64,000 nucleotides of DNA from Chamaelirium japonicum (taxonomy: Eukaryota; Streptophyta; Magnoliopsida; Liliales; Melanthiaceae): assembly GCA_947650365.1 (NCBI GenBank), contig OX393553.1, positions 62,619,055 through 62,683,054 of the forward strand, in the 5' to 3' direction. This document shows, piece by piece, positions 16,923-60,722 of the stretch. Made by a program: the position numbers and the translations under genes. Within the stretch, counting starts at the first letter, position 1. The number at the start of each line of letters is the position of its first letter. Under the pieces are notes generated by a model. The model saw only the letters and a program-made list of their open reading frames with translations, was not told the DNA's origin and searched no databases.

Positions 16923-17905
16923 GTATCGCGCTTCTGCGTCACTGAGACTGGTACCGATGAATGTCTCTCGAAGGAGATCACCGCCACCAAGGTTTACTCG
17001 GGTGATCTATTCGATTGAAGGTAACGCCTCCCACTCAATAGACGGAGGTTCTGACGGTAGGGGCTCCTTTGGTTGCTAGCTCGTAGAAGGGCCAGGTTCA
17101 TCTCTTTGATGCTTTGGTGGGGTGAGATTTTCTCTATGATCTGTCTTTGTTGAGGCGGCTTCGCAAAATCGCCCGACCTGTTGATCACCCTGAATGCAGA
17201 TAATGCCTTCTCCCATTGCAAATTTGAGGAGTTGGTGGTAGGAGGAGGATACGACATTGATCTGGTGGAGGAAAGGTCGCCCCAAAATGATGTTGTAGTT
17301 GGATGTTCCTTCGACGATGGCGAACCTCACAAAGACTCGAGTCTCTCTGCAGAAGTCCAGGGTGAATCTTGATTCCCCCATGGTCATGCTTTGCTTGCCA
17401 TTGAAGCCCGTGATAACGGTGGGGATGACGTCGAGGCTTGAATACTTATGCCGCAAGCACTTAAAGAAATCTGAGAACATAATCTCAATTGAACTACCGG
17501 TGTCAATGAGGATCCGGGTAACGGTACTCCTGTCAATGATGAGCCGCAGGACCAGGGGATCCCGATGCGAAGTATGCACTCCTTGAAGGTCTGAGTCGTT
17601 GAAGACGATCGATAGCCACACCAGCCTTTGATAGGTTTCTCGACCCAACTGCCATCTTTGTTTGCTGTCGAGCGAACATTGAAGATGCATCAAACTTGCC
17701 GATTGACTTCCTTCCCGGTCAGCATTTGATGGTGTAATGCTCCGTGGATGCCAAAGACGTTGACCTTCACAACGACCGGAGATGAGCGAGCGAAGACACA
17801 GCGGATCCAACAAGCTTCATTCCCTTTTGTTGAAGAGGGTTGATGTTGATCTCGTCCGTTCTTGATAAACTCTTGGAGATGGCCTTCACGCAACAAGTCC
17901 TCCAA
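16923..17905 (-). pseudogene. Gypsy aspartic protease and spacer
   Basis: ILIDTGSSIEIMFSDFF gives the catalytic D-T-G, and NYNIILGRPFLH is the typical second part of a Gypsy protease. The protease frame is open from 17813 to 17076. Downstream towards RT, the polylinker is rich in Pro and Gln. Confidence 0.85.
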
Positions 17906-28424: not shown

Positions 28425-30145
28425 GATGTTGGGCAACTAACCATTGGAGATGTAGTAAAGATAGGAGTGAGTTGGAGTGCTGCCGAACTTTGGAGGTCTC
28501 TACCTTGATTGGAGATGCATTACATTCATTTTCTGATGGTTTGTCTATCTTTTTGTTGGGAATATGACTCATTTATTTCTAGGAATAAGATTTGTTGGGG
28601 GAAAAATTATGGGGATATAGATGCTCGACTTGCAAAACAAGGGAATAACGTGAACAGCTAGTTCCGTGAGAAGCGCAGACCCTCCAACGCTCAAGTCAGT
28701 GAAGGTTTGAAAAGGGAGAGGTTTAGTAGTCGAAAAATATTAGGTTTTAGAGTTTCGAGGCTGTACTTTGGAACCTAGGGTCGTACCTTTATAGTCTTTT
28801 GCAGATCACCAGAGACTGACACGTCGCCGCTCATTTCCGTACTTTCTATACCTCCTCGTGCCAGCCCACATGGGTCCTTTATGGACCTTGTCGTTTAGCT
28901 TGTCAGGCGGTGGCTAGGGGCCACAAGGGGGGATGCACCGGTCTTGTCTAGGCCAGGTGGGCATTCTGGAAGGCTCCAGTTGAGGACACTCTAGACCTAC
29001 TTTGGCCCGCGAACGCGGCTCACAATCATCCACGTAGTTCCACATTGGTGGTGACATTTGTCGACCCGTTACTGCCTTACTGTAGGCGACACCCGCGAGC
29101 AGGTAGGCGAACTCTTCTGCGGTCGCGTGATAGGGCGAGCTCTCAGGCGAGCTAATCAGTGCGGTAGTTCGGCAACACAACTATTATCGTTGCTCAATGC
29201 CCTTCTTTTTCCTATTGTCAACAGACGAGCTTTCACGGGTGAGCTGATGTGCTCTTGGGCGAGCTGTGGGTGCTGGATCTTCTAAAGTTTTCTTTAAGTT
29301 CTATGTAGGGGGCGACCTCCTCCGCAGGCGCGCTTATCACGTGCGATCAGGATGGGCTCTCTGGCTAGCTGATGGTGATTCGTAGATACCCTTCTAAGTT
29401 TCCTATATACAAAAGACGATATCCTTCGCGGGTGAGCTGACTAGCGAGGCAGCTTAGTGACCCAACGGATGCCGTTGTTTCGCCTTCTTCTTTCTATTAT
29501 CAATAGGCGAGCTCTTCCGCGGACGAGCTAATCGCGTGCGGGCTGAGCGAACTCCTAGGCGAGTGAGGGGTTAACGACGGGGCCAAAGGCGAGGTCCATC
29601 ACTTCCCTATATTCTTGTCGAGCAGAATGGAACCATCTTGAAGACGACCATGAGTATTTTGATGCCGGGCATGTGTCTATTTTTCGGGCACCGTCAAGAT
29701 TCATGGGGCCTATAATAAGGTGTTATGTTATACTCAACTTGGGTTCGGGTTGGTCGGGTTGCCTGACCTATTGGCGGCTTGGCCCAAGCCCAATCCGATC
29801 ACTTCTCCCAATCCTGAGTAGGGTCGGTATCAACTGGCCCAAGTTGCAGCCCTATGACAAAATGTGTTCAGTAAGATTTTGTTCCGACCAGTTTAAAGAG
29901 GTTTGATGTTCCCGGTCTCTCTCATTGGTCCATTCCAAGGATATGTTTGTCATTTCATACTGTTTATATGGTGAAATGACCAAAACCCCTCGATATGGAC
30001 CAATGAGAGAGACCGGGAACATCCAACCCCTTTAAGGAGGTTGGAACAAAATCGTACTCATCCTGGGCCCGTCGTCTTTAAGAAGAGCCTCCCTCCGGTC
30101 TGCTTGTTTCACAGGAGGAGAGAAAGAATGGTGGTGAAATCCTCC
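28369..30145. repeat. 1.8-kb tandem duplication, unit 2 (UGT-proximal)
   Basis: Second copy of 26559-28374; start-codon to start-codon distance is 1772 bases. Relative to unit 1 it lacks about 45 bases near 28510, at a TTGA/TTGG joint. It supplies the present UGT promoter. Confidence 0.9.
29870..30058. mobile_element. Palindromic MITE-like element, 70 bp from the UGT start codon
   Basis: Copy of the element at 28097-28286; here the left end reads AGTAAGATTTTG (one change). It contains TTTATATGG at about 29964, where the distal copy has TTTATCATGG, so a TATA-like box exists only in the gene-proximal copy. Confidence 0.7.
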
Positions 30146-31564
30146 ATGGGTGCTCACATCCTGGTGTTTCCCTTCCCAGCCCAGGGTCACATGCTGCCGC
30201 TGCTGGACCTCGCCCATCACCTCGACGCCGCCGGCCTCTCCGTCACCATCGTCGTCACCAGTAAGAACCGCCCCCTCCTTAACCCCCTCCTATCCCGCTC
30301 CCCCGAGATCGAGCCCCTCGTCCTCCCCTTCCCCGACCAGTACCCCTCCATCCCCCCGGGCATCGAGAACTTGAAGGACCTCCCACCCTCCTACTTCCCC
30401 GCCATGATGCACGCCCTGGCCGGCCTCCACCACCCCCTCCTCCGCTGGGCCCGCTCCCATCCCTCCCCGCCACGCGCCATCCTCTCCGACATGTTCCTCG
30501 GGTGGACCAACGCCCTGGCCGCCAGTCTCGGCATCCCCCGCCTCGTCTTCTCCCCCTCCGGCGCCCTCAGCATCGCCGGCATCAACTGCCTCTGGCGCGA
30601 CATGCCGAAGCCGGCCGACCCCTCCGACCCCGGGTCCCCGGTCTCCTTCCCCTCCATCCCCGGTTCCCCGATCTACCCCTGGTGCCAGCTATCCCGCCTG
30701 TACCGGGGGTACAGGGAGGGGGACCCACTTTGGGAATTCATAAAAGAGGGCTTCCTCCAAAACACCCGGAGCTGGGGTTACGTCTTCAACACCTTCAACG
30801 AGCTCGAGGGGAGGTACCTGGAGCACGTGAGGGTCGACCTCGGCCACTCACGCGTTTGGGCGGTGGGGCCCCTCTGCCCTCTCGACGACCCCGCCGCCGG
30901 CCGCGGTGGGCCCAGCTCCGTACCGGCCGACGAGGTCCTGGCGTGGCTGGATCGATTCGAGGAGGGCTCGGTGGTGTACGTGTGCTTCGGGAGCCAGGCC
31001 GCGCTGGCGCCGCCGCAGGCGGAGGCACTGGCGGCGGGGCTCGAGCGGAGCGGCGCCCGGTTCGTGTGGTGCGTGAGGGGGCCCACGGAGGCGGCGGACG
31101 GCGGCTGGGTGGCGGAGGGGTTCGAGGCGCGGGTGGCGGGGCGGGGGCTGGTGATCAGGGGGTGGGCCCCACAGGTGGCGGTGCTGGGGCACCGGGCGGT
31201 GGGGTGGTTCCTGACCCACTGCGGCTGGAACTCGACGCTGGAGGCGGTCGCCGCAGGCGTGTCGCTGCTGACGTGGCCGATGACCGCGGACCAGTTCTTC
31301 AACGCGAGGCTGCTGGAGGAGGAGGCGGGGGTGGCGGTGCGGGCTTGCGAGGGGATCGGCGCGTTGCCGGACCCCGACGAGCTGGCGAGGATCTTGGCCG
31401 AGTCGATGGACGGGTTACCACCGGAGAGGAAGAGGGCCGCGGAGTTGAGGAGGAGCGCGTCGGAGGCTGTGAGGAAAGGCGGGAGTTCGTACGGGGATCT
31501 TCAGGCACTGGTGGAGGAGCTCTCCAAGCTGAAACTGGAGCAGGAGACGTCCACATTAGCGTAA
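30128..31564 (+). CDS. Family-1 UDP-glycosyltransferase, UGT89-like
   Basis: 478 residues, one exon, usual length for plant UGTs. It would transfer a sugar, most likely glucose from UDP-glucose, to a hydroxyl of a small phenolic acceptor in the cytosol. The N-terminal acceptor half has the catalytic His21 (PFPAQGH) and the partner Asp121 (ILSDMFLGW). The C-terminal half has a complete 44-residue PSPG box (Trp346 to Gln389, with HCGWNS at 364-369 and the terminal Asp-Gln pair expected for a glucose donor). The phrases DLPPSYFP, GDPLWEFI, RVWAVGP, VRACEG and PDPDELAR fit group B (UGT89), whose known members act on flavonol 7-OH or benzoic acids. The acceptor is not predictable here. The frame is also open upstream to 30041, but there is no ATG before 30128. 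Met7 is an alternative start. Third positions are almost all G or C, unlike the flanks. No defect is seen. Confidence 0.93.
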   Translation: MVVKSSMGAHILVFPFPAQGHMLPLLDLAHHLDAAGLSVTIVVTSKNRPLLNPLLSRSPEIEPLVLPFPDQYPSIPPGIENLKDLPPSYFPAMMHALAGLHHPLLRWARSHPSPPRAILSDMFLGWTNALAASLGIPRLVFSPSGALSIAGINCLWRDMPKPADPSDPGSPVSFPSIPGSPIYPWCQLSRLYRGYREGDPLWEFIKEGFLQNTRSWGYVFNTFNELEGRYLEHVRVDLGHSRVWAVGPLCPLDDPAAGRGGPSSVPADEVLAWLDRFEEGSVVYVCFGSQAALAPPQAEALAAGLERSGARFVWCVRGPTEAADGGWVAEGFEARVAGRGLVIRGWAPQVAVLGHRAVGWFLTHCGWNSTLEAVAAGVSLLTWPMTADQFFNARLLEEEAGVAVRACEGIGALPDPDELARILAESMDGLPPERKRAAELRRSASEAVRKGGSSYGDLQALVEELSKLKLEQETSTLA

Positions 31565-32340: not shown

Positions 32341-32703
32341 TTGGTCGGTGAAAAACGACGAACAGGTGGAACAGATGAGGGCTTGGACGTAGATCCGGTG
32401 TCGAAGAGGCTAAATCCGGCTAGAGGAGGGTTGCTCCGGTGAAGTGATGGTGACGGGGGGTTTGACCAGACACGGGTGGTGATAGAGTAGAGCTAAAAAA
32501 AAGTGATAGTGAAAAACCAGTTGATCGGAGGCTGGTCCAGCGAAGAGATGCGAGGGGCGGTGGTCAGATTGGAGGGCAAGGCAGGCAGTAGTGATCAGAC
32601 TTAACTAGTGGGCGGAAGACAAAGGATACAATTGATCAGAAGGGCATTTTGACCATATTACTATTTTCTAAAATGACCTTGATATCCTTTTTGTCCTATG
32701 AGA

Positions 32704-35700
32704 TTCTAGAGAGAGAATCGGGAGGAGCTACGATCAGTTTGGGGAGCTAGGTGCATGCATGGGTTCTGTGAACGGCTGTGATGGTTCGGGTTTTAGAGAG
32801 AGAATAAATCGTGTATGAGTTGGGGTCGTGGGGTCCGGCGCATGAATGGCTTTAATGGGATTGGTGTGATGAACTTTTAAATGGGATAATAAAAGCCATT
32901 TATTTTAGAGAGAGGGAGTTGGCCGAGTGTGTGCATGGCTGGGGTTGGTGTGTGCGCGCATGCATGCTTGGATTGTCAGATCAGACAAGGTATGGCTGTG
33001 ATGGTTGCATGGGATTAAGTGGAATAGGAAAGAGAAAAGATGGAAAGAGATTAAGAGAGAGAACTTCGGTGGGGGGTGAGATTTAGAGAGAAAGAGATAT
33101 AGATGGCTGCGATTATGCATGCGTGTATGGGTTTCGGGTGTTGCATGGGGATTGGATCGGACGGCTAGGGTAAGAGAGGAAAAGATTGGGATCTAAAGAT
33201 GGTTGTTGTGATGGGTTTTTCGACGGCTAAAAGAATGGAAGGTGTAGTCACTGCTGGAACCCAAATCTTCTGCAACATTTCTCTGCGCCATCGTCTGCCC
33301 CCAAAGTCATAGTCGTCCGTTGCACCCAGGCTCGATCCGGTGCATCGCACTCATCCCAACCGGTAGGCAAAGGGACGACCGGTGCATCTCGATGAGAAGT
33401 GATGGGTTTGCATGGAAATAATTGTTGGGATGGTTGTGCATGGGTTGTTAGAGAGAGAGATGGAAAGATATTAGAGAGAGATTTAGAGAGATAGAGCTGG
33501 GCATGATTATGAGATTCTAGAGAGAGAATCGGGAGGAGCTGCGATCGGTTTGGGGAGCTACGTGCATGCATGGGTTCTGTGAACGACTGTGATTGTTCGG
33601 GTTTTAGAGAGAGAATAGATCGAGTATGAGTTGGGGTCGTGGGGTGTTGGTTTTGAATTTTGAATTCAAATATTTTTAAATGTTTTTAATCTCTCATTTA
33701 GTTTGAACAGGTCATATCATGCTGCATTCTGTTTGAGATCTTTTTGTTACCATGATCTGATCCTTTGGGAGGAACTGTTACTAGTGGAGATTGTGGGCCA
33801 CTTTAAGAGGGTTCAGTAGAATCGGTGAGTTGGGATTGAGGGTTAGTGGAGCCCGCATGGGATGGGAATTTGTTGTGGGGTCTGCCTATATAATGAGGCC
33901 GTGACTTTTCTCTAAATCACACAACTTCATTATCTCTCTCTCTCTCTCTCATCTCGAGTGGTGGACTTGGGAGTACCACACCTCTTCTTTTGAGCCAAGG
34001 GGTTGTTGCTTGCATCACGTGGAGGTGGGGTGCTTCACCCCTTGGCCAAGGTGTTGTTGCTTGCTTCACTTGGAGGTGGAGTGCTGCAGCATCTCTTTGA
34101 AGTTGAGGTGCTCGTCTTGGAACCGACAAGGTGCTTCACCCTCCTGTGTCCGTCAAGCTACTCGAGGACTTCCCTTGCCTCTCCAATCCATGCCGACATG
34201 CTACTCGAGGACGAGCTCTAGCCGCTATTCGGAGGAGCAACAAGGGGTCGTGATTAGTTCATCATCCTTCAACGCTTTCCTTCATCGAATCAGATTTTGA
34301 TATTATTTTTTGAAGTTTTTTGAGAGTTCCTACAAGCTCTCCTTGGTGCGTAGAAGCTCGAAGTCGTACCTTGGGGGCTTATCATCGGAGGCCAGGAGCA
34401 CTATCCTACGGCGGCGATCTAGTTTTCAGGGCATTGTGCAAGCACAAGCCTCGACTCATCTCTTTCGATAAGTCTTTTATTCTCCTTCTCATCTTTCCGT
34501 TATTTTGAATCTCTGTAGAAAGCCTTAGCTTCCTATCCTTTAGCTAGTTCACTCTCCATGAACCATTGTATGCTAATAGAATATAACTTTATTTTTCCAA
34601 CTTTTAAATGGGATAATAAAAGCGATTTATTTCAAAGAAAGGGAGTTGGTCGGGTGTGTACATGGCTAGGGTTGGCGTGTGCGCGCATGCATGCTTGGAT
34701 TGTCGGATCCGGTAAGGGATGGTTGTAATGGTTGCATGAGATTATTTGAAAAAGGAAAAAGAAAAGTTGTAAAGAGATTAAGAGAGAGAAGTTCAGTGGG
34801 TGGGGTGAGATTTAGAGAGAGAAAGAGATATGGATAGCTGCGATTATGTATGCGTGCATGAGTTTCGGGTGCTGCATGGGATTGGATCGGATGGCTGGGT
34901 ATAAGAGGGGAAAAGATTGGGATCTAGAGATGGCTGTTGTGATGGGTTCTTGGACGGCTAAAAGAATGGAAGGTATAGTCGATGTTGGAATCCAAATCTT
35001 TTGCTACATTTCACTACCCCATCGTCTGCCCCCGAAGTCATAGTCGTCCATTGCACCCAGGCCCGACCGGTGCATCGCACTCATCCCAACCAGTAGGCAA
35101 AGGGACGACCATGATTAGGTATAACCTAGAGCATATGTCGAAGGGCCAATCACATCCGTTTCTTTGCCTGCCGGTTCAGGCTGAGTGGGATGCACGGGTC
35201 GGGTATAGGTACAACGGACGGCTGTGACTTGGGGGGCAGACGATGGGGCCGAGAAATGGGGTAAAAGATTTGGGTTCAGGGGGGGCGTGGTTGCCCGCTT
35301 CGTGCTAATCGGGGGGTGTCTTGCCACCGAAGGTGGCCCGCTATAGTGCTGATAGGCACGGGCTGATGCGAGAAATGGCTAGGTTGGGTTCCGGATGGGA
35401 GGGCTCGCGATCAAACATCGCGATGGGGGAGTCAGGCACCAGCTGGATTCTGAGAGAGAGAGTGAAAGATATAGAAAGAGAATGCATGCATGATTCTCGG
35501 GTTTGCGTGAGGCTGCGATTGCATGGAGCGCTGGATATGGACTGATCTTGGACGATTGCGATGGGATGTGAGAGAGGACTGCATGGATTGAATGGCTAGA
35601 TCGAGGATTAGTTAAAGAAAGAGGGACATGCATGAATAGGGGTGATCAGCTCTTGGGTATTTAATTTATTTGGTTTAAATAGACAAATATTAAGATGGTG

Positions 35701-36438
35701 ACCGTAAGGTTTAAATGGAAACAATGAATGAGAAATCTTGATGAGTGGTGATGGGTTTGCATAGAAATAATTATTGGGGTGGATGTGCATGGTTTGTTAG
35801 AGAGAGATATGGAAAGATATTAGAGAGAGATTTAGAGAGATATAGCTAGGCATGATTATGAAATTCTAGAGAGAGAATCGGGAGGAGATGCGATCGGTTT
35901 GGGGAGCTACGTGCATGCATGGGTTCTATGAACGACTGTGATGGTTCAGGTTTCAGAGAGAGAATAGATCGTGTATAAGTTGGGGTTGTGGAATCCTGTA
36001 CATGCATGGCTTTAATGGGGGTGGTGTGATGAGCTTTTAAATGGGATAATAAAAGCAAATTAATTTAGCTTTTAAATGGGATAATAGACCCGACCGGTGC
36101 ATCGCACTCATCCCAATCGGTAGGCAAAGGGATGACCATGATCAGGTACAACCTAGAGCATATATCGGGGGGCCAATCACATCTGTTTCTTTGCTTACCG
36201 GTTCGGGCTGAGTGCGATACACGGGTCGGGTATGGGTGCAACGGACGCTGTGACTTGGGGGGCAGACGATGGGGCAGAAGATTTGAGTTCAGGGGTTTGG
36301 GGAGGAGGGTAAGTGGTTGCCCGCTTCGTGCCAATCGGGGGGTGTCTTGCCGCCGAAGGCGGGCCGCTGCATCGTTGATAGGTGTGTTGCTGCCGAAAGC
36401 GGCTCGTTGCAGTGCCGACAGGCAAGGGCATGCACTAG
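32704..36438 (+). repeat. Mosaic of G/A-rich modules ending in a Helitron 3' terminus
   Basis: Module X (GATTCTAGAGAGAGAATCGG to GGGATAATAAAAGC) begins near 32704, 33511 and 35867. Module Y (GAGTTGGCCGAGTGT to ATCTTCTGC...TCTCTGC) begins near 32910 and 34640. Module Z (ACCTAGAGCATAT to GGGGCAGACGATGG and beyond) begins near 35120 and 36140. Some copies lack Y. The block ends with GTGCCGACAGGCA, GGGCATGCA, CTAG at 36435-36438. No protein is recognisable, and ORFs here are GAGA/GCATGC by-products. Confidence 0.7.
33645..34600 (+). repeat. Solo LTR-like insert in the module block
   Basis: It interrupts module X after GGGTCGTGGGG, starts TGTTGGTTTTGAATTTTG and ends near TTTTTCCAA, after which module X resumes. 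About 40-55 bases of module X are missing at the joint, so there is no target duplication. It has a TATA box (TATATAA, 33887-33893) followed by a CT repeat, as in an LTR U3-R. A related, diverged sequence is at 24440-24760. Confidence 0.6.
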
Positions 36439-37004
36439 TCTATATAACAAGGGACGCCGGTTTTGTGCTAACTAGACAAAACAGAACAAAAAAGCTGACT
36501 AGGACAAGCTGATTGGACAAAAATAAACCAAATAGATCTGACCATTCCTTTAAAAATAACGCACGATCTCTCCTTGGTTTCAAATCCATACATATTTAAA
36601 CTGCACTAAACCCCTAAAATCCCGGCCTATTGAAATTGTACTAAACTTGACCACTGATCCCGTGACCGTTGTTCGCATCAACGGCTATAAACCCGCTTGC
36701 TGAAATTTTGGCTGCTCCAAACCATCGGGTTGATCTCGAGGAATCCGTTCGAACAAAGATAGCTGTAATTGATCGATTATAGGAGGATGGGAGTTTGTCG
36801 TGCCGAAGGTGCCCGCTTCATGCCAATCGGCGCGGGCGAGGAAATGTGTGTGTCCCTATAAATACCGGTGTTGTCGTCAAAAGTGTTTTATTACCGAAGA
36901 CATTCAGGAGTGTTGCCGCCAAAGGCGGTCCGCTGCAGTGCCGACAAGTATATTGCTGCCGAAGGCGGCCCGCTAAAGTGCCGACAGGCACAGGCATGCA
37001 CTAG
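36439..37004 (+). mobile_element. Short Helitron, 566 bp, flanked head-to-tail by others
   Basis: Starts TCTATATAACAAGG directly after the CTAG of the preceding unit. It ends with hairpin sequences (GCCGAAGGCGGC and GTGCCGACAGGCAC), GGCATGCA and CTAG. A TC start, a hairpin about 9 bases from the end and a CTAG terminus are the structural marks of Helitrons. It has no coding region and is non-autonomous. Confidence 0.7.
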
Positions 37005-40000
37005 TCTATATAACAAGTGACAACAGTTTTGTGCTGACTAGACAAAAATGAACCAAATGCTGACTAGACAAAACAAATAAGCGAGCACAGTCGTTCCCTC
37101 TCTTCTTCCCCGATCTCTGCATGAATGGTGGTGATCAGCTCTTATTTAATTGATTTGGTTTAAATAGATAGATATTAAGAGGGGGATCACAAGGTTTAAA
37201 TGGAAACAATAAATAAGAAATCTCGATGAGAGGTGATAGGTTTGCATGGAAATAATTATTGGGATGGCTGTGTATGGGTTGTTAGAGAGAGATATGGAAA
37301 GATATTAGAGAGAGATTTTGAGAGATAGAGTTGGTCATGATTATGAGATTCTAGAGAGAGAATCAGGAGGAGCTGCAATCGGTTTGGGGAGCTAGGTGCA
37401 TGCATGGATTCTGTGAACGGCTGTGATAATTCGGGTTTTAGAGAGGATTAGATCGTGTATGAGTTGGGGTCGTGGGGTCCTGCACATGCATGGCTTTGCA
37501 TGGCTAGATTTAATGGGATTGGTGTGATGAGCTTTTAAATGGAATAATAAAAGCAATTTATTTTAGAGAGAGGGAGTTGGCCGAGTGTATGCATAGCTGG
37601 GGTTGGAGTGTGCGTGCATGCATGCTTGGATTGTCAAATCAGGCAAGGGATGGCTGTGATGGTTGCATGGGATTAATTGGAATATGAAAGATAAAAGATA
37701 GAAAGAGATTAAGAGAGAGAAGGTTGGTGGGGGGATAAGATTTAGAGAGAGAGAGAGAGAGATATGGATGGCTGCGATTATGCATGCGTGCATGAGTTTT
37801 GAGTGTTGCATGGGGATTGGATCGGACGGCTGGGTGTAAGAGGGGAAAATATCGGGATCTAGAGATGGCTGTTGTGATGGGTTCTTGGATGGCTAAAAGA
37901 ATGGAAGGCGTAGTCGCTGCTGGAACCCAAATCTTCTGCTATATTTCTCTGCCCCATCGTTTGCCCCCAAATTCATAGTCGTCCGTTACACCCAGGCCCG
38001 GCCGGTGCATCGCACTCATCCCAACCGTTAGGCAAAGGGACGAACGGTGCATCTCGATGAGAGGTGATGAGTTTGCATGGAAATAATTGTTGGGATGGCT
38101 GTGCATGGGTTGTTAGAGAGAGATATTAAAGAGAGATTTAGAGAGATAGAGTTGGGCATGATTATGAGATTCTAGAGAGAGAATTGGGAGGAGTTGCGAT
38201 CGGTTTGGGGTGCTACATGCATGCATGGGTTCTGTGAATGGCTGTGATGTGGTTCGGGTTTTAGAGAGAGAATATATCGTGTATGAGTTGGGGTTGGAGT
38301 GTGCGTGCATGCATGTTTGGATTATCGGATCAGGCAATGGATGCGTGCATGGCTGGGGTTGGAGTGTGCGTGCATGCATGTTTGGATTGTCGGATCAGGC
38401 AACGGATGGCTGTGATGGTTGCATGTAATTAATTGGAATAGGAAAGAGAAAAGAAGGAAAGAGATTAAGAGAGAGAAGTTCGGTGGGGGGGGGGTGAGAT
38501 TTAGAGAGAGAAAGAGATATGGATGACTGCGATTATGCATACGTGCATGGGTTTTGGGTGCTGCATGAGGATTGGATCGGACGACTGGGTGTAAGAGGGG
38601 AAAAGATCAGGATCTAGAGATGGTTGTTGTGATGGGTTCTTGGACGGTTAAAAGAATGGAAGGCATAGTCGCTGCTGGAACCCAAATCTTCTGGTATATT
38701 TCTCTGCCCCATCGTCTGTTCCTAAAGTCATAGTCGTTCGTTGCAGCCAGGCCCGATCGGTGCATCGTACTTATCCCAATCGGTAGGCAAAGGGCCGACC
38801 ATGATTAAGTACAACCTAGAGCATATGTTGGGGGTTCAATCACATTCGTTTCTTTGCCTGCCGGTTCGGGCTGAGTGCGATACATGGGTCGGGCATGGGT
38901 GCAACGGACGACTTTGACTTGGGGGGCAGACGATGGGGCAGAGAAATGAGGCAGAAGATTTGGGTTCAGGGGTGAGGGGGCCGTGGTTGCTCACTTCGTG
39001 CCAATCAGGGGGTGTCTTGCTGCCGAAGTTGGCCTGCTACAGGCACGGGCTGATGCTAGGAATGGCTGAGCTTAGGTTCCGGATGGGAGGGCTTGCGATC
39101 AAACATCGCGATGGGGGAGTCGGGCACCAGCTAGATTCCGAGAGAGATAATGAAAGATATAGAAAGAGAATGCATGCATGATTCTAGAGTTTGCGTGAGG
39201 CTGTGGTTGAATGGGGCACTGGATATGGGCTGATCTTGGACGGTTGCGATGGGATGTGAGAGAGGGCTGCATGGATCGGACGGCTAGATAGAGGATTAGT
39301 TAAAGAGAGAGGGACATGCATGAATGGGGGTGATCAGCTATTGGATGTTTAATTGATTTGGTTTAAATAGACAGATATTAAGAGGGGACCACAAGGTTTA
39401 AAATGAAACAATAAATGAGAAATCTTGATGATGGGTTTGCATGAAAATAATTATTGGGATGGCTATGCATGGGTTGTTAGAGACAGATATAGAAAGATAT
39501 TAGAAAGAAATTTAGTGAGATAGAGCTGGGCATGATTATAAGATTCTAGAGAGAGAATCAATAGGAGATGCGATCGGTTTAGGGAGCTACGTGCATGCAT
39601 GGGTTCTGTGAACGGTTGTGATGGTTCGGGTTTTAGAGAGATAATAGATCGTGTATGAGTTGGGGTTGTGGGGTCCTACACATGCATGGCTTTAATGGGG
39701 GTGGCGTGATAAGCTTTTAAATGAGATAATAAAAGCGAATTATTTTAGCTTTTAAATGGGATAATAGACCCAACCGGTGCATCAGACTCATCCCAACCTG
39801 TAGGCAAAGGCATGACCATGATCAGGTAAAACCTAGAGCATATATCGAGGGGCCAATCACATCTGTTTCTTTGCCTGCTGGGTCGGGTTGAGTGCGATGC
39901 ACGGGTCGGGTATGGGTGCAACGGACGGCTGTGACTTGGGGGGCAGACAATTGGGCAGAAGATTTGGGTTCAGGGGTTTGGAGGAGGGGGGGGACGGTGG

Positions 40001-40359
40001 TTGCCCGCTTCGTGCCAATCGGGATTGTCGGTCCATCGGGGCGAGGTCATAGGAGCTAGGTGTTAGTGCCGAAGGCGGCGGCTTTGGTGGTAGCGAATGG
40101 CGCAACAGTAGCCGCTGTAAGTGGTGTCAGGGTCGACGGTCCATTGGGGCGGGGCCGATGTAGGCCAGTGTTGCTGCCGAAAGTGTTTTGTTGTCGAAGC
40201 CGAATACAACGATGTGGGTGGTGATTCCTGGGGGGTGTCTTGCCACTGATTGCGACCCAGTGCAATGCCGGCAGGTATGTTGCCGCCAAAGGCGGTCCGA
40301 CTGTGTTTTGCCGCCGAAGGCGGCCCGTTACAGTGCCGACAGGCACGGGCATGCACTAG
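37005..40359 (+). mobile_element. Helitron-like unit, 3355 bp
   Basis: Starts TCTATATAACAAGTG directly after the preceding CTAG. Its body consists of X, Y and Z modules (X near 37349, 38172 and 39545; Y near 37563 and 38290; Z near 38800 and 39830). The end has two or three hairpin copies (GCCGCCGAAGGCGGC, GTGCCGACAGGCAC), then GGGCATGCA and CTAG, followed by T and an (AT)n tract. No Rep/helicase sequence is seen. Confidence 0.65.

Positions 40360-40445
<86 letters not shown>
40360..40445 (+). repeat. (AT)n-(AG)n microsatellite
   Basis: About 50 bases of AT repeat followed by about 35 bases of AG repeat. It begins at the Helitron terminus and ends at the palindromic element T1. Confidence 0.95.
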
Positions 40446-40448
<3 letters not shown>

Positions 40449-40832
40449 CTGTTACGTTGAGCTGTGAGCTATGGGTGGAGAAAATGAGCTGCCCTCATTT
40501 TGATTCCCCTAGGAGTTTTGGAATTTGATGAAATTTGGTGAGGGTGTTATCTAGGATAAGATGATCATCCTCACCAATTTTCATCAAATTCCAAAACTTC
40601 TAGGGTCATCAAATGGTAGAAGCATTATCTACCGTCCGCAGTCACCATTAATTTTGCTTCTACCATTTGATGACCCTAGAAGTTTTGGAATTTGATGAAA
40701 ATTGGTGAGGATAATCATCTTATCCTAGATAACACCCTCACCAAATTTCATCAAATTCCAAAACTCCTAGGGGGATCAAAATAAGGGCAGCTCATTTTCT
40801 CCACCCGTAGCTCACAGCTCACTATAACATTC

Positions 40833-40833
<1 letters not shown>
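40446..40833. mobile_element. Palindromic element T1 (about 388 bp)
   Basis: Nearly the whole element is an inverted repeat about a centre near 40640. Left arm blocks GGGCTGTTACGTTGAGCTGT, GAATTTGATGAAATTTGGTG and GATAAGATGATCATCCTCAC recur inverted on the right. It sits between AT/AG and CT/AT microsatellites. Such (TA)n-flanked foldback elements recall the rice Micron type (microsatellite-targeting); family identity is inferred. Confidence 0.8.
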
Positions 40834-40891
<58 letters not shown>

Positions 40892-40894
40892 TAT

Positions 40895-40956
<62 letters not shown>

Positions 40957-40969
40957 AGAGAGAGAGAGA

Positions 40970-41114
40970 GGGGTGTTAGGATGCGGCGTGCGGTGCGTGC
41001 GGCGCACCGCAACAGCCGTCTGATGCACTGCTGCGTGCATCGCACGCACCGCAGCAGTGCATCAAACGGCTGCGGTGCGGCGCCGCACGCACCGCACGCC
41101 GCATCCTAACATTC
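40970..41114. mobile_element. Palindromic element T2 (about 145 bp, GC-rich)
   Basis: Arms of about 60 bases: GGATGCGGCGTGCGGTGCGT and inverted ACGCACCGCACGCCGCATCC, with GCAGTGCATCA blocks near the centre. Flanked by microsatellites on both sides. Its end GGGGTGTTAGG resembles the GGGCTGTTAC end of T1. Confidence 0.8.

Positions 41115-41201
<87 letters not shown>
41115..41201 (+). repeat. (CT)n-(AT)n microsatellite, left flank of Copia B
   Basis: CT then AT repeats running directly into the TG of the Copia LTR. Confidence 0.95.
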
Positions 41202-41205
<4 letters not shown>

Positions 41206-43519
41206 AGAATTAGTGAGGTCTACAGCTCGTAAAAACCTATAGTTTAGCTATGTATGGTTGATAATATAGGATTGCATATTGGTACGTACCTTAGTACATA
41301 TTCTGATTACAGAACAGAGAGCCATGGCTACATGGTAATCCACTTGAGTAGGAGACTCAAGGGACTGGTCCCATGTAACCTAAATAAGTTCGCAGCTCTG
41401 ATTAGGGTTAGTCGCCCTATCAGGATAAGCTATTGGGATGACAGAGCATGGGTGTCTCTACCATGGTCATTACCAGGCACAGTGTCTGTGACCGAACGGA
41501 ACCAACACGGTATATAGATCGATGAGCAAACATCGATGCACTAAACCGTGTTTCTACTTAGGGTAAAACGGTCCTAAACCCTGAGGAACCATGTCTGGTG
41601 GACTAACCAGTTGTGTGGTACTTTGGCACACCAATGTGTGAGGATCCGGATGTAGTGATCCAAAACCACAGTGTACTGGGTTACCTGACTGGAGTTGCAT
41701 TAGCGTGTCACTTCTGCAGGCTATCCACATCCCTAACGGGAGGTACGTTCCTTGGTCTTATCTATGTAGTATTAAACCCTAGCCAGGTGGTCATAAGTTG
41801 GACTGGTGACGGATCTGGTTGCTCGTCAGAGTCATCGGAGGTATGCTGTATATGGTCAACCTAAAGGAACCGAGTCATATGAGCACTCGAGTCTGACGGT
41901 ATTCTCCACCGCTCGAGTTACATCATGGCACCAGATAGTGGGACAGCAGGTTTACCATACTAAGCGGAGAGCAGGGGTATGAGGGAGAACATAGTAAGTT
42001 CGGGGGAATTGAAGTGCAGCCTGCGACGTACTCTGGGTGGCCATGCAGGTTAACTCGGACTCAGAGGATCGATGGTACACTCGGGTAGTGTGTCGATCGA
42101 GTCTAAGTTAGAAGCCATGAACCCTGGTCCCTGAAGGTTCCACCTTATCGATATTATGTACGGTCCTAGTACCATCTCCTCAAAATATAGAACGCAGTAA
42201 GAGGAAGCGAATAATCCAAGCCTACGCTCCGTGAGTGCTTCACACTAGTGCACGTTAGATGCGTAGTTATGTGTGTGCACTAAGGGGAAAACCTACGTTA
42301 GTGTAGAGACGCTTGTAGCAATTCCTTGCCATAAATGGACTTTGCCACATGGGTGCGAAGCAACGGGACATATTGCGAGTTGACTAGTTGACTTCTCTAG
42401 GGGCACCCTACGAGAACCTCAGAGAATAGTGAAATCACTAGTGCACTTTACTTATGTGTGCCTTGCAAAGTCTCATACACGAGGAACGGCCAACTAGTGA
42501 CATAAGGGCGTTTTGGTCATATCATGCGCCACTATGCACTAGGGGGGCTGGCCCTAAGTGTTGGGAGACTGGTCAAGGCCGGCCCCATTGGTTTCAGGAG
42601 GTTGTTGCCTCCAATGAATGGGCCGGTGATGAGGCACAGAAAATGGGCTGGTTTTGACCGATTTCAAAACCAAGGAAAAGATAGAGATAAAAGAAGAGAT
42701 ATATAGGGAGAGGTTTGAATCAGTCAAACTTATCCGTACTATCCTTATCCATATGGATAGGCCGGCCCTATATAAGGGAAAAGGAGAGAGGGGGGTCAGC
42801 CATGCAAGCCCTAGGGGTCAGCCATGCCATGGGGAAACCCTAGCCACCCCCTCTTCTCTCTTCTCTTCTTCTATCTCATCTCTCTCTCCCTCGTTTGCGC
42901 TATTTGATGGCGACTCGTCTTCCTCGCATGGTGTTTTGTATAAGGAGAAGGCTCATCGGATGGAGGCACTCATAGATCCATCGATGAGGTGCCGTGCATT
43001 GTGTGAGATCGGGTGAACTAGAAGTCATCTCCTGCAAGCTTTTGCTATCCAGAATCTGCATAGAAAATTAGCATTATTTATGTGATTCTGGGAGCTACAA
43101 AAGTCCAAATGAGGTGACACTTATTATAAAAGTTGAATCTCGAAGTTGGCTACCTGCAGTCCAAATTTCAGCCCAATCCGAGTTCGGAACAGAAAGTTAT
43201 GGACATCTTACCGAAGCTATATCAAGCAGATCTGAGCCCGTCTCCATCGACAAAGAAGAAACTTATCGCGATGAAAGAATCTGCATGCAGGTATGATCTC
43301 TAACATGTAGATCTAACATAGATAGAATATATATGCATGCTAGATTATTCTTTCGTATTAAATCGACATTAGGGGTTCGCGTAGTTGCCATGCTAGATTC
43401 ATACACGCACGTGTAGATCGTTTCGATGAAAATTTTGATATGTAACGCACACCGCTCACGGTCTTCGAACCTTCACTTTGCTTCCGCTACGAGCCTCTAC
43501 CATGGATTTACATCCAGTA
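41202..43519 (+). repeat. 5' LTR of Copia B (2318 bp)
   Basis: Starts TGTTAGAATTAGTGAGGTC and ends CATCCAGTA, where the 3' LTR has CATCCAACA. The small ORFs inside correspond in both LTRs and in the copy at 61568, and are LTR sequence rather than genes. Confidence 0.9.
42769..42776 (+). promoter_or_regulatory. TATA box of the Copia B 5' LTR
   Basis: TATATAAG directly after GGCCGGCCC and before a GA-rich leader. In the 3' LTR the box has decayed to AATATAAG near 50340. The copy in the duplication keeps it at 63135-63142. Confidence 0.65.
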
Positions 43520-48773: not shown

Positions 48774-51083
48774 TGTTAGAATTGGTGAGGTCTACAGCTT
48801 TTAAAAACCTATAGTTTAGCTATGTATGGTTGATAATATAGGATTGCATATTGGTACATACTTTAGTACGTCTTCTGATTACAGAACAGAGAGCCATAGC
48901 TACATGGTAATCCACTTGAGTGGGAGACTCAAGGGACTGGTCCCATGTAACCTAAATGAGTTTGCAGCTCTGATTAGGGTTGGTCGCCCTATCAGGATAA
49001 ACTGTTGGGATAATAGACCGTGGGTGTCTCTACCACGGTCATTACCAGGCACAGTGTCTGTGGCCGAACGGAACCATCACGGTGCATAAATCGGTGAGCA
49101 GACACCGGTGCACTAAACCGTGTTTTTGCTTAGGGTAAAACGGTCATAAACCCTGAGGAACTATGCCTGGTGAACTAACCAGTTGTGTGGTGCTTTGGCG
49201 CACCAATGTGTGAGGATCCGGATGCAGTGATCCAAAATCACGGTGTACTGGGTTACCCGGCTAGTGTTGCATCAGTATATCACTCCTGCAGACTATCCAT
49301 ACCCCTAACAGGAGGTGCGTTCCTTGGTCTGATCTACGTCATATTAAACCCTGGCCAAGTGGTCATCAGTTGGACTGGTGACGGATCCGATTGCTCGTCA
49401 AAGTAATCAGAGGTATGATGTATATGGTCAACCTGGAAGGAACCGAGTCATATGAGCACTCGAGTCTGACGGTATTCTCCACCGCTCGAGTTGCATCATG
49501 GCACCAGATAGAGGGACAGCGGGTTTACCATACTAAGCGGAGAACAGGGGTATAAGGAAGAACATAGTAAGTCCGAGGGAATTGGAGTGCAGCCTGCGAC
49601 GCACTCTGGGTGGCCACGCAGGTTAACTCAGATTCAAAGGATCAATGGTACACTCAGGTAGTGTGTCGATCGAGTCTAAGTTGGAAGCCATGAACCTTGG
49701 TCCCTGAAGGTTCCACCTTATCGACATTATGTATGGTCCTAGTATCATCTCCTCGAAACATAGAACGCAGTAAGAGGAAGTGATTAGTCCAAGCCTACGC
49801 TCCGTGAGTGCTTCGCACTAGTGCACGGTAGATACGTAGTTACATGTGTGCACTGAGGGGAAAACCTACGTTAGTGTAGAGACGCATGTAGCAATTACTT
49901 GCCATAGTGGACTTTGCCACATGGGTGAGAAGCACCAGGACATGTTGTGAGTTGACTAATTGACTTCACTAGGGGCACCCTACGGAAACCTCAGAGAATA
50001 GTGAAATCACTAGTGCACTTCACTTATGTGTGCCTTGAAAAGTCTCGTACACGAGGAACGGCCAACTAGTGACATAAGGGCGTTTTGGTCATATCATGTG
50101 CCACTATGCACTAGGGGGCCGGCCCTAAGTATTGGGAGACTGGTCAAGACCGGCCCTATTAGTTTCAGGAGGTTGTTGCCTCAAATGAATGGGCCGGTGA
50201 TGAGGCACATAAAATGGGCTGGTGTTGATCGCTTTCAAAACCAAGAAAAAGATAGAGATAAAAGAAGAGATATATAGGGAAAGGTTTGAATCAGTCAAAC
50301 TTATCCATACTATCCTTATCCATATGCACAGGCCGGCCCAATATAAGGGAAAAGGAGAGAGGGGGGTCGGCTATACAAGCCCTAGGGGCCGGCCATGCCA
50401 TGGGTAAACCCTAGCCGCCCCCTCGCCTCTCTTCTCTTCTTCTCTCTCGTCTCTCTCTCCCTCGCTTGTGCCATTAGATGGCGACTCGTCTTCCTCGCGT
50501 GGTGTTTCGTAGAAGGAGAAGGCTCATCGGATGGAGGCACTCAGAGATCCATCGACGAGGTGTCGTGCATCGTGTGAGATCGGATGAACTAGAAGGCATC
50601 TCCCGCAAGCTTTTACTGTCCAGAATCTACACAGAAAATCAGTATTGTTTCTATGATTCCGAGAGAATAGAAGTCTAAACGAGGTGAAACTTATTGCAAA
50701 TGTTGCATCTCGAAGTTGGCTACCTACAGTCTAAATTTCATCCCAATCCGAGTTCGGACCAGAAAGTTATGGCCATCACAAAGACGTTATATCAAGCAGT
50801 CCGAGCCCGTCTCCATCGACAAAGAAGAAACTTGTCGCGGTGAAAGAATCCGCACGTAGGTATGATCTCTAACATGTAGATCTAACATAGATAGAATATG
50901 CATGCATGCTAGATTGTTATTTCGCGTTAGATCGACGTTAGGGGTTCGCGTAGTTGCCATGCTAGATTCATACACGCACGTGTAGATCGTTTCGATGAAA
51001 ATTTTGATATGTAACGCACACCGCTCACGGTCTTCGGACCTTCAATTTGCTTCCGCTGCGGGCCTCTACCATGGATTTACATC

Positions 51084-51088
<5 letters not shown>
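48774..51088 (+). repeat. 3' LTR of Copia B (2315 bp)
   Basis: Starts TGTTAGAATTGGTGAGGTC and ends CATCCAACA, directly before an AT repeat. Over the first 275 bases it differs from the 5' LTR at about 19 positions by eye. Confidence 0.9.
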
Positions 51089-52289: not shown

Positions 52290-52880
52290 GGGGGGGTTTA
52301 TCGAAATGGGTGGCAATGGAGAAGGTCTTCGGAGGCGTGATTCAGCAAAACTACTGCTCCATGATCTTGTGAGGGAGATTGGTCGGAGATCGAGCTCCGG
52401 GAGGGCCTGTCTTGCGACGAACGACGAAGAGGTGGAATGAAAGAAGGCTTGGGCGCAGATCGGGCATCGGAAGGGCTAGATCCGAGGAGTAGAGGGTTGC
52501 TCCAACGAAGTGATGGTGACCGGGGAGGGGGGGGTTTCTAACCGGAGACAGGTAGCGACGGAGAAGGGCACCGGAGGCGCGATCGAGCAAAATTGCTAAT
52601 ACGGGATCTCATGAGGGAGATTGTGCGAATATTGAGCTCTGGAGGGCCTGGTCGGTGAAAAACGACGAACAGGTGGAACAGATGAGGGCTTGGACGTAGA
52701 TCCGGTGTCGAAGAGGCTAAATCCGGCTAGAGGAGGGTTGCTCCGGTGAAGTGATGGTGACGGGGGGTTTGACCAGACACGGGTGGTGATAGAGTAGAGC
52801 TAAAAAAAAGTGATAGTGAAAAACCAGTTGATCGGAGGCTGGTCCAGCGAAGAGATGCGAGGGGCGGTGGTCAGATTGGA
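52290..52880. repeat. About 240-bp tandem repeat across the duplication boundary
   Basis: The block with CGACGAACGACGAAGAGGTG, CAGATCGGGCATCGGAAGG and GAAGTGATGGTGACCGGGG (about 52405-52535) recurs, diverged, from about 52645 on. The joint between duplication copies (52649/52650) falls between these two units. Confidence 0.7.
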
Positions 52881-53952
52881 GGGCAAGGCAGGCAGTAGTG
52901 ATCAGACTTAACTAGTGGGCGGAAGACAAAGGATACAATTGATCAGAAGGGCATTTTGACCATATTACTATTTTCTAAAATGACCTTGATATCCTTTTTG
53001 TCCTATGAGATTCTAGAGAGAGAATCGGGAGGAGCTACGATCAGTTTGGGGAGCTAGGTGCATGCATGGGTTCTGTGAACGGCTGTGATGGTTCGGGTTT
53101 TAGAGAGAGAATAAATCATGTATGAGTTGGGGTCGTGGGGTCCGGTGCATGAATGGCTTTAATGGGATTGGTGTGATGAACTTTTAAATGGGATAATAAA
53201 AGTCATTTATTTTAGAGAAAGGGAGTTGGCCGAGTGTGTGCATGGCTGGGGTTGGAGTGTGCGCGCATGCATGCTTGGATTGTCAGATCAGGCAAGGTAT
53301 GGCTGTGATGGTTGCATGGGATTAATTGGAATAGGAAAGAGAAAAGATGGAAAGAGATTAAGAGAGAGAACTTCGGTGGGGGGTGAGATTTAGAGAGAAA
53401 GAGATATAGATGGCTGCGATTATGCATGCGTGTATGGGTTTCGGGTGTTGCATGGGGATTGGATCGGACGGCTAGGTGTAAGAGAGGAAAAGATCGGGAT
53501 CTAAAGATGGTTGTTGTGATGGGTTTTTCGATGGCTAAAAGAATGGAAGGTGTAGTCACTGCTGGAACCCAAATCTTCTGCAACATTTCTCTGCGCCATC
53601 GTCTGCGCCCAAAGTCATAGTCGTCCGTTGCACCCAGGCTCAATCCGGTGCATCGCACTTATCCCAACCGGTAGGCAAAGGGACGACCGGTGCATCTCGA
53701 TGAGAAGTGATGGGTTTGCATGGAAATAATTGTTGGGATGGTTGTGCATGGGTTGTTAGAGAGAGAGATGGAAAGATATTAGAGAGAGATTTAGAGAGAT
53801 AGAGCTGGGCATGATTATGAGATTCTAGAGAGAGAATCGGGAGGAGCTGCGATCGGTTTGGGGAGCTACGTGCATGCATGGGTTCTGTGAACGACTGTGA
53901 TTGTTCGGGTTTTAGAGAGAGAATAGATCGAGTATGAGTTGGGGTCGTGGGG

Positions 53953-54908
53953 TGTTGGTTTTGAATTTTGAATTCAAATATTTTTAAATGTTTTTAATCT
54001 CTCATTTAGTTTGAACAGGTCATATCATGCTGCATTCTGTTTGAGATCTTTTTGTTACCATGATCTGATCCTTTGGGAGGAACTGTTACTAGTGGAGATT
54101 GTGGGCCACTTTAAGAGGGTTCAGTAGAATCGGTGAGTTGGGATTGAGGGTTAGTGGAGCCCGCATGGGATGGGAATTTGTTGTGGGGTCTGCCTATATA
54201 ATGAGGCCGTGACTTTTCTCTAAATCACACAACTTCATTATCTCTCTCTCTCTCTCTCATCTCGAGTGGTGGACTTGGGAGTACCACACCTCTTCTTTTG
54301 AGCCAAGGGGTTGTTGCTTGCATCACGTGGAGGTGGGGTGCTTCACCCCTTGGCCAAGGTGTTGTTGCTTGCTTCACTTGGAGGTGGAGTGCTGCAGCAT
54401 CTCTTTGAAGTTGAGGTGCTCGTCTGGGAACCGACAAGGTGCTTCACCCTCCTGTGTCCGTCAAGCTACTCGAGGACTTCCCTTGCCTCTCCAATCCATG
54501 CCGACATGCTACTCGAGGACGAGCTCTAGCCGCTATCCGGAGGAGCAACAAGGGGTCGTGATTAGTTCATCATCCTTCAACGCTTTCCTTCATCGAATCA
54601 GATTTTGATATTATTTTTTGAAGTTTTTTGAGAGTTCCTACAAGCTCTCCTTGGTGCGTAGAAGCTCGAAGTCGTACCTTGGGGGCTTATCATCGGAGGC
54701 CAGGAGCACTATCCTACGACGGCGATCTAGTTTTCAGGGCATTGTGCAAGCACAAGCCTCGACTCATCTCTTTCGATAAGTCTTTTATTCTCCTTCTCAT
54801 CTTTCCCTTATTTTGAATCTCTGTAGAAAGCCTTAGCTTCCTATCCTTTAGCTAGTTCACTCTTCATGAACCATTGTATGCTAATAGAATATAACTTTAT
54901 TTTTCCAA
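53953..54908 (+). repeat. Solo LTR-like insert, copy in duplication 2
   Basis: Counterpart of 33645-34600, nearly identical, same insertion point. Confidence 0.6.
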
Positions 54909-56746
54909 CTTTTAAATGGGATAATAAAAGTGATTTATTTCAAAGTAAGGGAGTTGGTCGGGTGTGTACATGGCTAGGGTTGGCGTGTGCGCGCATGCAT
55001 GCTTGGATTGTCGAGTCCGGTAAGGGATGGTTGTGATGGTTGCATGAGATTAATTGAAAAAGGAAAGAGAAAAGATGTAAAGAGATTAAGAGAGAGAAGT
55101 TCAGTGGATGGGGTGAGATTTAGAGAGAGAAAGAGATATGGATAGCTGCGATTATGTATGCGTGCATGAGTTTCGGGTGCTGCATGGGATTGGATCGGAT
55201 GGCTGGGTATAAAAGGGGAAAAGATTGGGATCTAGAGATGGCTGTTGTGATGGGTTCTTGGACGGCTAAAAGAATGGAAGGTATAGTCGATGTTGGAATC
55301 CAAATCTTTTGCTACATTTCACTACCCCATCGTCTGCCACCGAAGTCATAGTCGTCCGTTGCACCCAGGCCCGACCGGTGCATCGCACTCATCCCAACCA
55401 GTAGGCAAAGGGACGACCATGATTAGGTACAACCTAGAGCATATGTCGGAGGGCCAATCACATCCGTTTCTTTGCCTGCCGGTTCAGGCTGAGTGGGATG
55501 CACGGGTCGGGTATGGGTACAACGGACGGCTGTGACTTGGGGGGCAGACGATGGGGCCGAGAAATGGGGTAAAAGATTTGGGTTCAGGGGGGGGCGTGGT
55601 TGCCCGCTTCGTGCTAATCGGGGGGTGTCTTGCCACCGAAGGTGGCCCGCTATAGTGCTGATAGGCACGGGCTGATGCGAGAAATGGCTAGGTTGGGTTC
55701 CGGATGGGAGGGCTCGCGATCAAACATCGCGATGGGGGAGTCAGGCACCAGCTGGATTCCGAGAGAGAGAGTGAAAGATATAGAAAGATAATGCATGCAT
55801 GATTCTCGGGTTTGCGTGAGGCTGCGATTGCATGGAACGCTGGATATGGACTGATCTTGGACGATTGCGATGGGATGTGAGAGAGGACTGCGTGGATTGA
55901 ACGGCTAAATAGAGGATTAGTTAAAGAAAGAGGGACATGCATGAATAGGGGTGATCAGCTCTTGGGTATTTAATTTATTTGGTTTAAATAGACAAATATT
56001 AAGAGGGCGACCGTAAGGTTTAAATGGAAACAATGAATGAGAAATCTTGATGAGTGGTGATGGGTTTGCATAGAAATAATTATTGCGGTGGATGTGCATG
56101 GTTTGTTAGAGAGAGATATGGAAAGATATTAGAGAGAGATTTAGAGAGATAGAGCTAGGCATGATTATGAAATTCTAGAGAGAGAATCGGGAGGAGATGC
56201 GATCAGTTTGGGGAGCTACGTGCATGCATGGGTTCGTGAACGACTGTGATGGTTCAGGTTTCGGAGAGAGAATAGATCGTGTATAAGTTGGGGTTGTGGA
56301 ATCCTGTACATGCATGGCTTTAATGGGGGTGGTGTGATGAGCTTTTAAATGGGATAATAAAAGCAAATTAATTTAGCTTTTAAATGGGATAATAGACCCG
56401 ACCGGTGCATCGCACTCATCCCAACCGGTAGCCAAAAGGATGACCATGATCAGGTACAACCTAGAGCATATATCGGGGGGCCAATCACATCCGTTTCGTT
56501 GCTTACCGGTTCGGGCTGAGTGCGATACACGGGTCGGGTATGGGTGCAACGGACGCTGTGACTTGGGGGGCAGACGATGGGGCAGAAGATTTGAGTTCAG
56601 GGGTTTGGGGAGGAGGGTAAGTGGTTGCCCGCTTCGTGCCAATCGGGGGGTGTCTTGCCGCCGAAGGCGGGCCGCTGCATCGTTGATAGGTGTGTTGCTA
56701 ACGAAAGCGGCTCGTTGCAGTGCCGACAGGCAAGGGCATGCACTAG

Positions 56747-57309
56747 TCTATATAACAAGGGACGCCGGTTTTGTGCTAACTAGACAAAACAGAACAAAAA
56801 AGCTGACTAGGACAAGCTGATTGGACAAAAATAAACCAAATAGATCTGACCATTCGTTTAAAAATAATGCACGATCTCTCCTTGGTTTCAAATCCAAACA
56901 TATTTAAACTGCACTAAACCCCTAAAATCCCGGCCTATTAAAATTGTACTAACTTGACCATTGATCCCGTGACCGTTGTTCGCATCAACGGCTATACCCG
57001 CTTGCTGAAATTTCGGCTGCTCCAAACCATCGGGTTGATCTCGAGGAATCCGTTCGAACAAAGACAGCTGTAATTGATCGATTATAGGAGGATGGGAGTT
57101 TGTCGTGCCGAAGGTGCCCGCTTCATGCCAATCGGCACGGGCGAGGAAATGTGTGTGTCCCTATAAATACCGGTGTTGTCGTCAAAAGTGTTTTATTACC
57201 GAAGACATTCAGGAGTGTTGCCGCCAAAGGCGGTCCGCTGTAGTGCCGACAAGTATATTGCTGCCGAAGGCGGCCCGCTAAAGTACCGACAGGCACATGC
57301 ATGCACTAG
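56747..57309 (+). mobile_element. Short Helitron, copy in duplication 2
   Basis: Counterpart of 36439-37004 with the same TC start, hairpins and CTAG end, and the same direct junctions on both sides. Confidence 0.7.
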
Positions 57310-60300: not shown

Positions 60301-60670
60301 GGGGGACGGTGGTTGCCCGCTTCGTGCCAATCGGGATTGTCGGTCCATCGGGGCGAGGTCGTAGGAGCTAGGTGTTACTGCCGAAGGCGGCGGCTTTGGT
60401 GGTAGCGAATGGCGCAACAGTGGCCGCTGTAAGTGGTGTCAGGGTCGACGGTCCATTGGGGCGGGGCCGATGTAGGCCAGTGTTGCTGTCGAAAGTGTTT
60501 TGTTGTCGAAGCCGAATACAATGATGTGGGTGGTGATTCCTGGGGGGTGTCTTGCCACTGATTGCGACCCACTGCAATGCCGGCAGGTATGTTACCGCCA
60601 AAGGCGGTCCGACTGTGTTTTGCCGCCGAAGGCGGCCCGTTACAGTGCCGACAGGCACGGGCATGCACTA

Positions 60671-60671: not shown

Positions 60672-60721
<50 letters not shown>

Positions 60722-60722
<1 letters not shown>

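Follow-up and report, generated by a model that had tools for sequence, protein, structure and literature searches.

A head-to-tail array of Helitrons in Chamaelirium japonicum

The window analysed here is a stretch of 64,000 base pairs (bp) of the Chamaelirium japonicum genome (1.5 Gb; assembly GCA_947650365.1), located at 62.62-62.68 Mb of contig OX393553.1 (C5), and its + strand carries three Helitron-like units in a head-to-tail row. Unit 1 (32697-36438) is related to unit 3 and closes with a damaged-stem hairpin followed by CTAG at 36435-36438; its left edge is merely the point where similarity to unit 3 sets in, and no TCTATATAACAAG-like start was found upstream when up to 2 mismatches were allowed. 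Unit 2 (36439-37004) is a 566-bp Helitron without a recognised gene that runs from TCTATATAACAAG to GTGCCGACAGGCACAGGCATGCACTAG. Unit 3 (37005-40359) is a Helitron-like element of 3355 bp that starts with TC and ends with CTAG at 40356-40359, after which TATGTATATA follows, so that the feature extends well past position 37030, where a preliminary description of this DNA had ended it. The units meet at 36435-36440, where the T of unit 2 lies at 36439, and at 37001-37006, where CTAG (37001-37004) is followed by the T of unit 3 at 37005. Both internal joints read CTAG|TCTATATAACAAG with a spacer of 0 (the bar marks the border between units), which bears out the exact CTAG|TC junctions of the preliminary description. 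The 24-base joint GCATGCACTAGTCTATATAACAAG occurred 4 times in the window, compared with 0 of 100 shuffled versions (3 mismatches allowed).

The whole array sits in a tandem duplication of ∼20.3 kb (32342-52648 and 52649-64000, ∼97% identity), the second copy of which exceeds the window end. Identity between positions 32342-41202 and 52649-61490 is 97.5%, with the similarity continuing to the end of the window; unit 2 recurs at 56747-57309 (97.5%) and unit 3 at 57310-60671 (97.7%). The second pair of joints that had been pointed out at 56746/56747 and 57309/57310 is thus indeed present, but it is not independent, and the four joints of the window represent two events because the second pair lies in the duplicate.

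Neighbouring units of the array are not copies of each other. Units 1 and 3 show ∼87.5% identity across 1.7 kb, whereas unit 2 has ∼70 bp in common with unit 3 at the 5' end (84%) and ∼100 bp in common with units 1 and 3 at the 3' end (about 80%). We conclude that the window holds a real head-to-tail array of Helitrons.

The termini are shared with copies elsewhere in the genome

Helitrons begin with TC and end with CTRR, and the units show TC starts and CTAG ends, unit 1 being recognised by its 3' end alone. In units 2 and 3 a hairpin, GTGCC-GACA-GGCAC (GTGCCGACAGGCAC), lies 9 bases ahead of CTAG; with its 14 bases it is slightly short of the 16-20 bases, placed 10-15 bases from the 3' end, that are typical of Helitrons. 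The preliminary description had given a hairpin, about 9 bases and CTAG for the 3' terminus at both joints; in unit 1 the stem is damaged (GGCAA) and the folding program favours a different fold. Folding energies of the hairpins were unexceptional against shuffles (z -0.84 to -1.36).

The 5' starts have the pattern TCTATATAACAWG. A search with the joint-spanning region of the preliminary description returned 4640 first-look candidates, of which 40 were scored, and over all searches 92 loci (designated by L numbers) were fetched. After 18 of these had been dropped as duplicates or overlaps, the remaining loci yielded 105 distinct 3' ends and 107 distinct 5' starts. Outside joints, A precedes 62 of 68 5' starts, a few of which (e.g. 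L009, L021, L032) are altered or missed joints, and T follows 62 of 65 3' ends. Only one of the 68 starts has a G ahead of it (L032, TACTAG|TC), and there the unit is in fact joined to one of another family. One apparent joint, in L026, was a chance match of the search pattern to an ordinary A|TC end. The counts of flanking bases agree with insertion between A and T without target duplication. The termini are therefore real, since copies elsewhere in the genome begin A|TC and finish CTAG|T; the Helitron identity holds with them, and single insertions with other end points, which the preliminary description had named as the finding that would speak against it, did not turn up: single copies share the same ends.

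The Helitron_like_N domain (PF14214) has at least 150 matches in the genome (150 of 150 scored, out of 315 candidates). Open frames without stops reach up to 1,451 amino acids and a number of them exceed 1,000 codons. We therefore take it that Helitron machinery exists or existed in this genome.

Joints are common and mostly exact

Since the joint-containing first query favours joints, we also searched with 399 bp of the unit 2 interior, which is free of that bias. Of 40 places scored with this interior query, 30 were fetched including the window's own two, which were excluded, so that 28 of 38 non-window places were counted; 6 of these 28 copies carried a direct joint. The joint was downstream of the copy in L061, L064, L067, L069, and L074 and upstream in L067 and L068, and in L067 and L069 it adjoins a mutated CTAG (TTAG and TTAA). 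With a 140-bp joint query, all 40 of the 40 scored best candidates spanned a joint, the window's two included; as a selected list this gives a lower bound only.

The joints were also mostly exact. In the fetched pieces, 37 of 45 3' ends that precede another 5' start did so with a spacer of 0, and the other eight spacers were 2, 4, 72, 136, 139, 394, 491, and 556 bp; this sample is enriched in joints, as most pieces were drawn by joint-containing queries. Among the loci drawn by the interior query alone (L052-L078), five zero spacers stood against spacers of 136 and 139 bp. A|T sites occur at ∼0.079 per base in the fetched loci, or roughly 10^8 genome-wide, and by our own estimate random insertion of ten thousand copies would give less than one exact joint. 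Random insertion was therefore rejected as the source of the joints, as was a loose preference for nearby sites, which is contradicted by the 37 zero spacers.

Most sampled joints link units that are not siblings

We next compared the partners at individual joints. For this comparison, 14 of the 38 non-window places found with the joint query were fetched. At 7 of the 14 joints the upstream partner resembles the unit 2 family in the terminal region only, and at the other 7 it carries the unit 2 family interior. For joints within the unit 2 family we left out 12 of 69 loci (duplicates, and the inverted L062) as well as unit matches shorter than ∼380 bp of the reference. Raw identity as the sole test of siblinghood was of little use. 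At 18 such joints the mean identity between neighbours was 86.8%, as compared with 86.5% for shuffled partners (P 0.065). An earlier indication that neighbours are less alike than random pairs (11 joints, 86.6 versus 87.8% for all random pairs) is accounted for by the other units having been selected as best hits.

The phylogeny of the family is close to a star, and changes at CG/CHG positions recur in it without linkage; we therefore used five non-CG transversion sites together with the long or short class of the 3' end. At these characters neighbours agreed in 0.571 of comparisons versus 0.523 for shuffled partners (P 0.16), and other sets of diagnostic sites likewise gave no significant closeness of neighbours (P 0.14, 0.14, and 0.30); the diagnostic columns were picked on the same alignment on which they were tested, and the long and short classes were assigned by hand. 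The 3'-end class differs in at least 5 of 18 pairs (L018, L037, L069, L081, L090), this being the number taken as safe from an automatic call that scored 8 of the 18 pairs as unlike. Multimers made by rolling-circle replication should consist of copies of one unit, and this is not what we found in the window or at most of the joints sampled elsewhere. Most sampled joints link non-sibling units.

A joined pair that moved as one element

Two loci, L021 (C5, 4.54 Mb) and L024 (C11, 53.2 Mb), have ∼2.07 kb in common at 97.8% identity. The shared segment stretches from the A|TC of one unit to the CTAG|T of the next, and the host flanks differ; at the 5' edge the similarity extends 2 bases beyond the A|TC start. 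Inside the segment the two units meet at CTA|TC, and the stem of the inner hairpin is damaged. The same pair thus stands at two places with different flanks and exact outer ends, as expected of a composite made by terminator bypass (L021/L047 and L024/L048), and the simplest account is that the joined pair travelled as a single element past a broken terminator. The evidence for such movement comes from the L021/L024 pair and not from the array in the window. Read-through accounts for the moving of a joined pair, not for the making of most joints. Among the sampled dimers at large there was no sign of composite copies, in that the relatedness of upstream and downstream units showed no positive correlation (r -0.22).

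The L021 copy of the composite sits 4 bp (TATA) downstream of a further Helitron 3' end. Joints lacking the G, CTA|TC, were read at position 1329 of L021, at 1248 of L024 (- strand) and near 644 of L090 (- strand). In L009, L012, L034, and L092 the joint is CTA(G)TATATATAAC, with TA in place of the expected TC, which reflects either C-to-A changes or expansion of the TA repeat at the 5' end.

Other features of the window

Elsewhere in the window, positions 260-2118 form a satellite-like tandem array rich in CGATCGG with periods of ∼138-172 bp, and 29975-31561 is an open frame of 529 codons that matches UDP-glycosyltransferase (PF00201). Retrotransposon fragments (RVT_1, RVT_2) lie on the - strand at 16257-17003 and 8493-9053. 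A repeat of ∼2.3 kb adjoining long TA runs is present at 41202-43516, 48774-51085, and 61568-63887, its first two copies being ∼91% identical.

Origin of the joints

Taken together, we consider it probable that these are arrays of non-autonomous Helitrons in which mostly unrelated units were joined end to end, one after another. Where a resident Helitron begins, a host A followed by TCTATATAAC forms a canonical, AT-rich A|T target, and this 5' edge is also the site that the transposase nicks to start transposition. A newcomer placed exactly at this edge would produce the order A, new unit (TC...CTAG), resident unit (TC...CTAG), T. Occasionally, a joined pair with a damaged inner terminator would then be replicated from its outer TC to its outer CTAG and move as a composite. 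The preliminary description had held that independent insertions would leave host bases between the units, an argument that Du et al. 2008 (PMC2267711) report as that of Pritham and Feschotte. It fails at this point, since host A and resident T together form an A|T target and insertion there would therefore give CTAG|TC without a spacer. If the usual target rule holds, the acceptor would more likely be the 5' than the 3' edge of the resident, because G is nearly absent ahead of non-joint 5' starts. For one maize pair, Du et al. 2008 named as options both insertion at the A|T where the resident begins and insertion at the G|T of its 3' edge (PMC2267711). Helraiser targets AT-rich sequence, most strongly on the 3' side (PMC4778049); in our loci A/T makes up 77% after single 3' ends and 8 of 10 bases of the resident start.

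A further step would be that the transposase actively recognises the resident edge. It may prefer resident Helitron termini as integration acceptor by recognising the A|TC that it nicks, thus homing with single-base precision; we put this forward tentatively, as a possibility that is itself somewhat doubtful.

Several observations weigh against end-on joining at the 5' edge of resident copies. Our loci yielded neither an empty site nor an allele with a single unit, and no empty-site comparison was made. Insertion at the 5' edge should leave an age order, and this is absent: the upstream unit is the less diverged one at 10 of 18 joints, an earlier hint (8 of 11) having been lost in this larger set. 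In the one published maize pair with polymorphism between lines, the left unit occurs on its own; this is better explained by arrival at the 3' edge, or else an excision is required (PMC2267711). Altered joints exist, namely CTA|TC in L021 and L090 and a TC that is missing or replaced by TA in L088 and L092; those of L021 and L090 are also compatible with insertion 3' of a resident that lacks the G. Furthermore, the neighbours match at every scored diagnostic site in 3 of 17 same-family joints (L015 b/c, L025, L079), compared with a full-agreement rate of 4.6% among cross pairs (simple binomial about 0.04), and the identity of neighbours leans slightly upward, as given above. A minority of same-family joints may therefore be true multimers. 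Detection of siblings is also weakened, as most substitutions are recurrent CG/CHG changes without linkage, and a control duplication (L035) agrees at 3 of 3 and at only 2 of 3 scorable diagnostic sites.

Of the other explanations, insertion at the 3' edge survives best, though we regard it as unlikely. Here the CTAG|T of the resident, a second natural cleavage site of the transposase, would accept the newcomer, which lands downstream and yields the identical joint. This route agrees directly with the maize lines of Du et al. 2008 (PMC2267711), the missing age order poses no difficulty, and loss of the G from the resident would make plain A|T insertions of the CTA|TC joints in L021 and L090. 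Next to an intact CTAG|T, however, the newcomer would have to use a G|T target, and single insertions practically never do so.

The preliminary description had taken the joints as the product of rolling-circle run-on, in which one Helitron is replicated past its terminator, from a donor or from a CTAG|TC circle, and the head-to-tail multimer is inserted. In the literature, rolling-circle transposition has been argued from exact CTAG|TC joints (PMC5876387), with one maize case in dissent (PMC2267711). Helraiser forms circles whose CTAG|TC junctions are exact (PMC4778049, PMC5876387), and exact end-to-end junctions are known in circles of wheat Xuan1 (PMC13286980). The three fully agreeing joints may fit such an origin. 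The units of the window, on the other hand, are unlike in length and interior, half of the compared joints are between families, and neighbours of the same family show no significant excess of similarity over shuffled partners. In this sample, unlike neighbours refute run-on as the general cause, and we regard it as distinctly unlikely. The preliminary description thus stands in calling the units Helitrons and in the termini and head-to-tail joints that it gave; its step from these joints to run-on does not.

Joining before integration, in which the transposase fuses two CTAG|TC circles into a dimer that then enters an A|T site in a single insertion, would account together for unlike neighbours, exact joints, and the outer A|T, and circles are known intermediates (PMC4778049, PMC5876387). 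The maize pair, however, has one-unit alleles (PMC2267711), and we hold this route to be improbable to a high degree. Tandem duplication through unequal exchange or slippage, finally, is exemplified by L035, where three unit-2-like copies (1433-3242, 92.7-93.2% identity) arose by later tandem duplication together with ∼110 bp of host-like, non-Helitron intervening sequence (104 of 112 columns identical), but it cannot produce exact CTAG|TC joints between different families, is refuted for unlike pairs, and is hardly worth considering as the general origin.

Relation to known Helitrons and significance

Exact joints of this kind are already known in bats and maize. The pair in the maize r1 region is, as here, an exact CTAG|TC joint of unlike Helitrons for which the authors favour consecutive insertion; that study concerns one pair, whereas here tens of joints were read and the relatedness of neighbours was measured (PMC2267711). 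The head-to-tail junctions and tandem arrays of bats (Pritham and Feschotte 2007, via PMC2267711 and PMC5876387) show equally exact joints and were read as tandem repeats, in contrast to the mostly non-sibling neighbours found here. Akin to our joints, a FoHeli4 element of Fusarium/Metarhizium is inserted 2 bp upstream of the 5' end of another, and for three tandem copies of FoHeli the authors weigh the same two explanations, insertion at the 5' end and rolling-circle replication; these are, however, non-canonical fungal Helitrons and the cases are few (PMC5148889). Maize Helitrons with multiple termini or a pseudo 3' end resemble L021/L024 in being composites with a damaged inner CTAG, but their path was deduced from nested elements, whereas the present case is an end-joined pair that moved as a whole (PMC3288121). 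Helraiser shares the A|T target, the CTAG|TC circle junction, and bypass of the 3' end; it is an experimental single element, and arrays of unlike units are not described in the portions of those papers at hand (PMC4778049, PMC5876387). Helitrons are also known to prefer inserting near other Helitrons (Yang and Bennetzen 2009, as cited in PMC12477314 and PMC3288121). In the open-access literature searched, as far as its available text goes, we found no counts of the precision or frequency of joints or of the unrelatedness of neighbours.

Our data do not describe a new kind of system; rather, the counts tilt an old argument and make it testable, and the joints of this genome appear to be numerous enough for counting to settle the question. 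Since most sampled joints link non-siblings, CTAG|TC joints alone are not evidence of replication past the terminator. If self-targeting by the transposase is true, it would lead to arrays of unlike units and to occasional composites, and what the CTAG|TC joint records would then be self-targeting and not replication run-on. End-on joining also offers Helitrons a simple way of turning into composites and acquiring neighbours.

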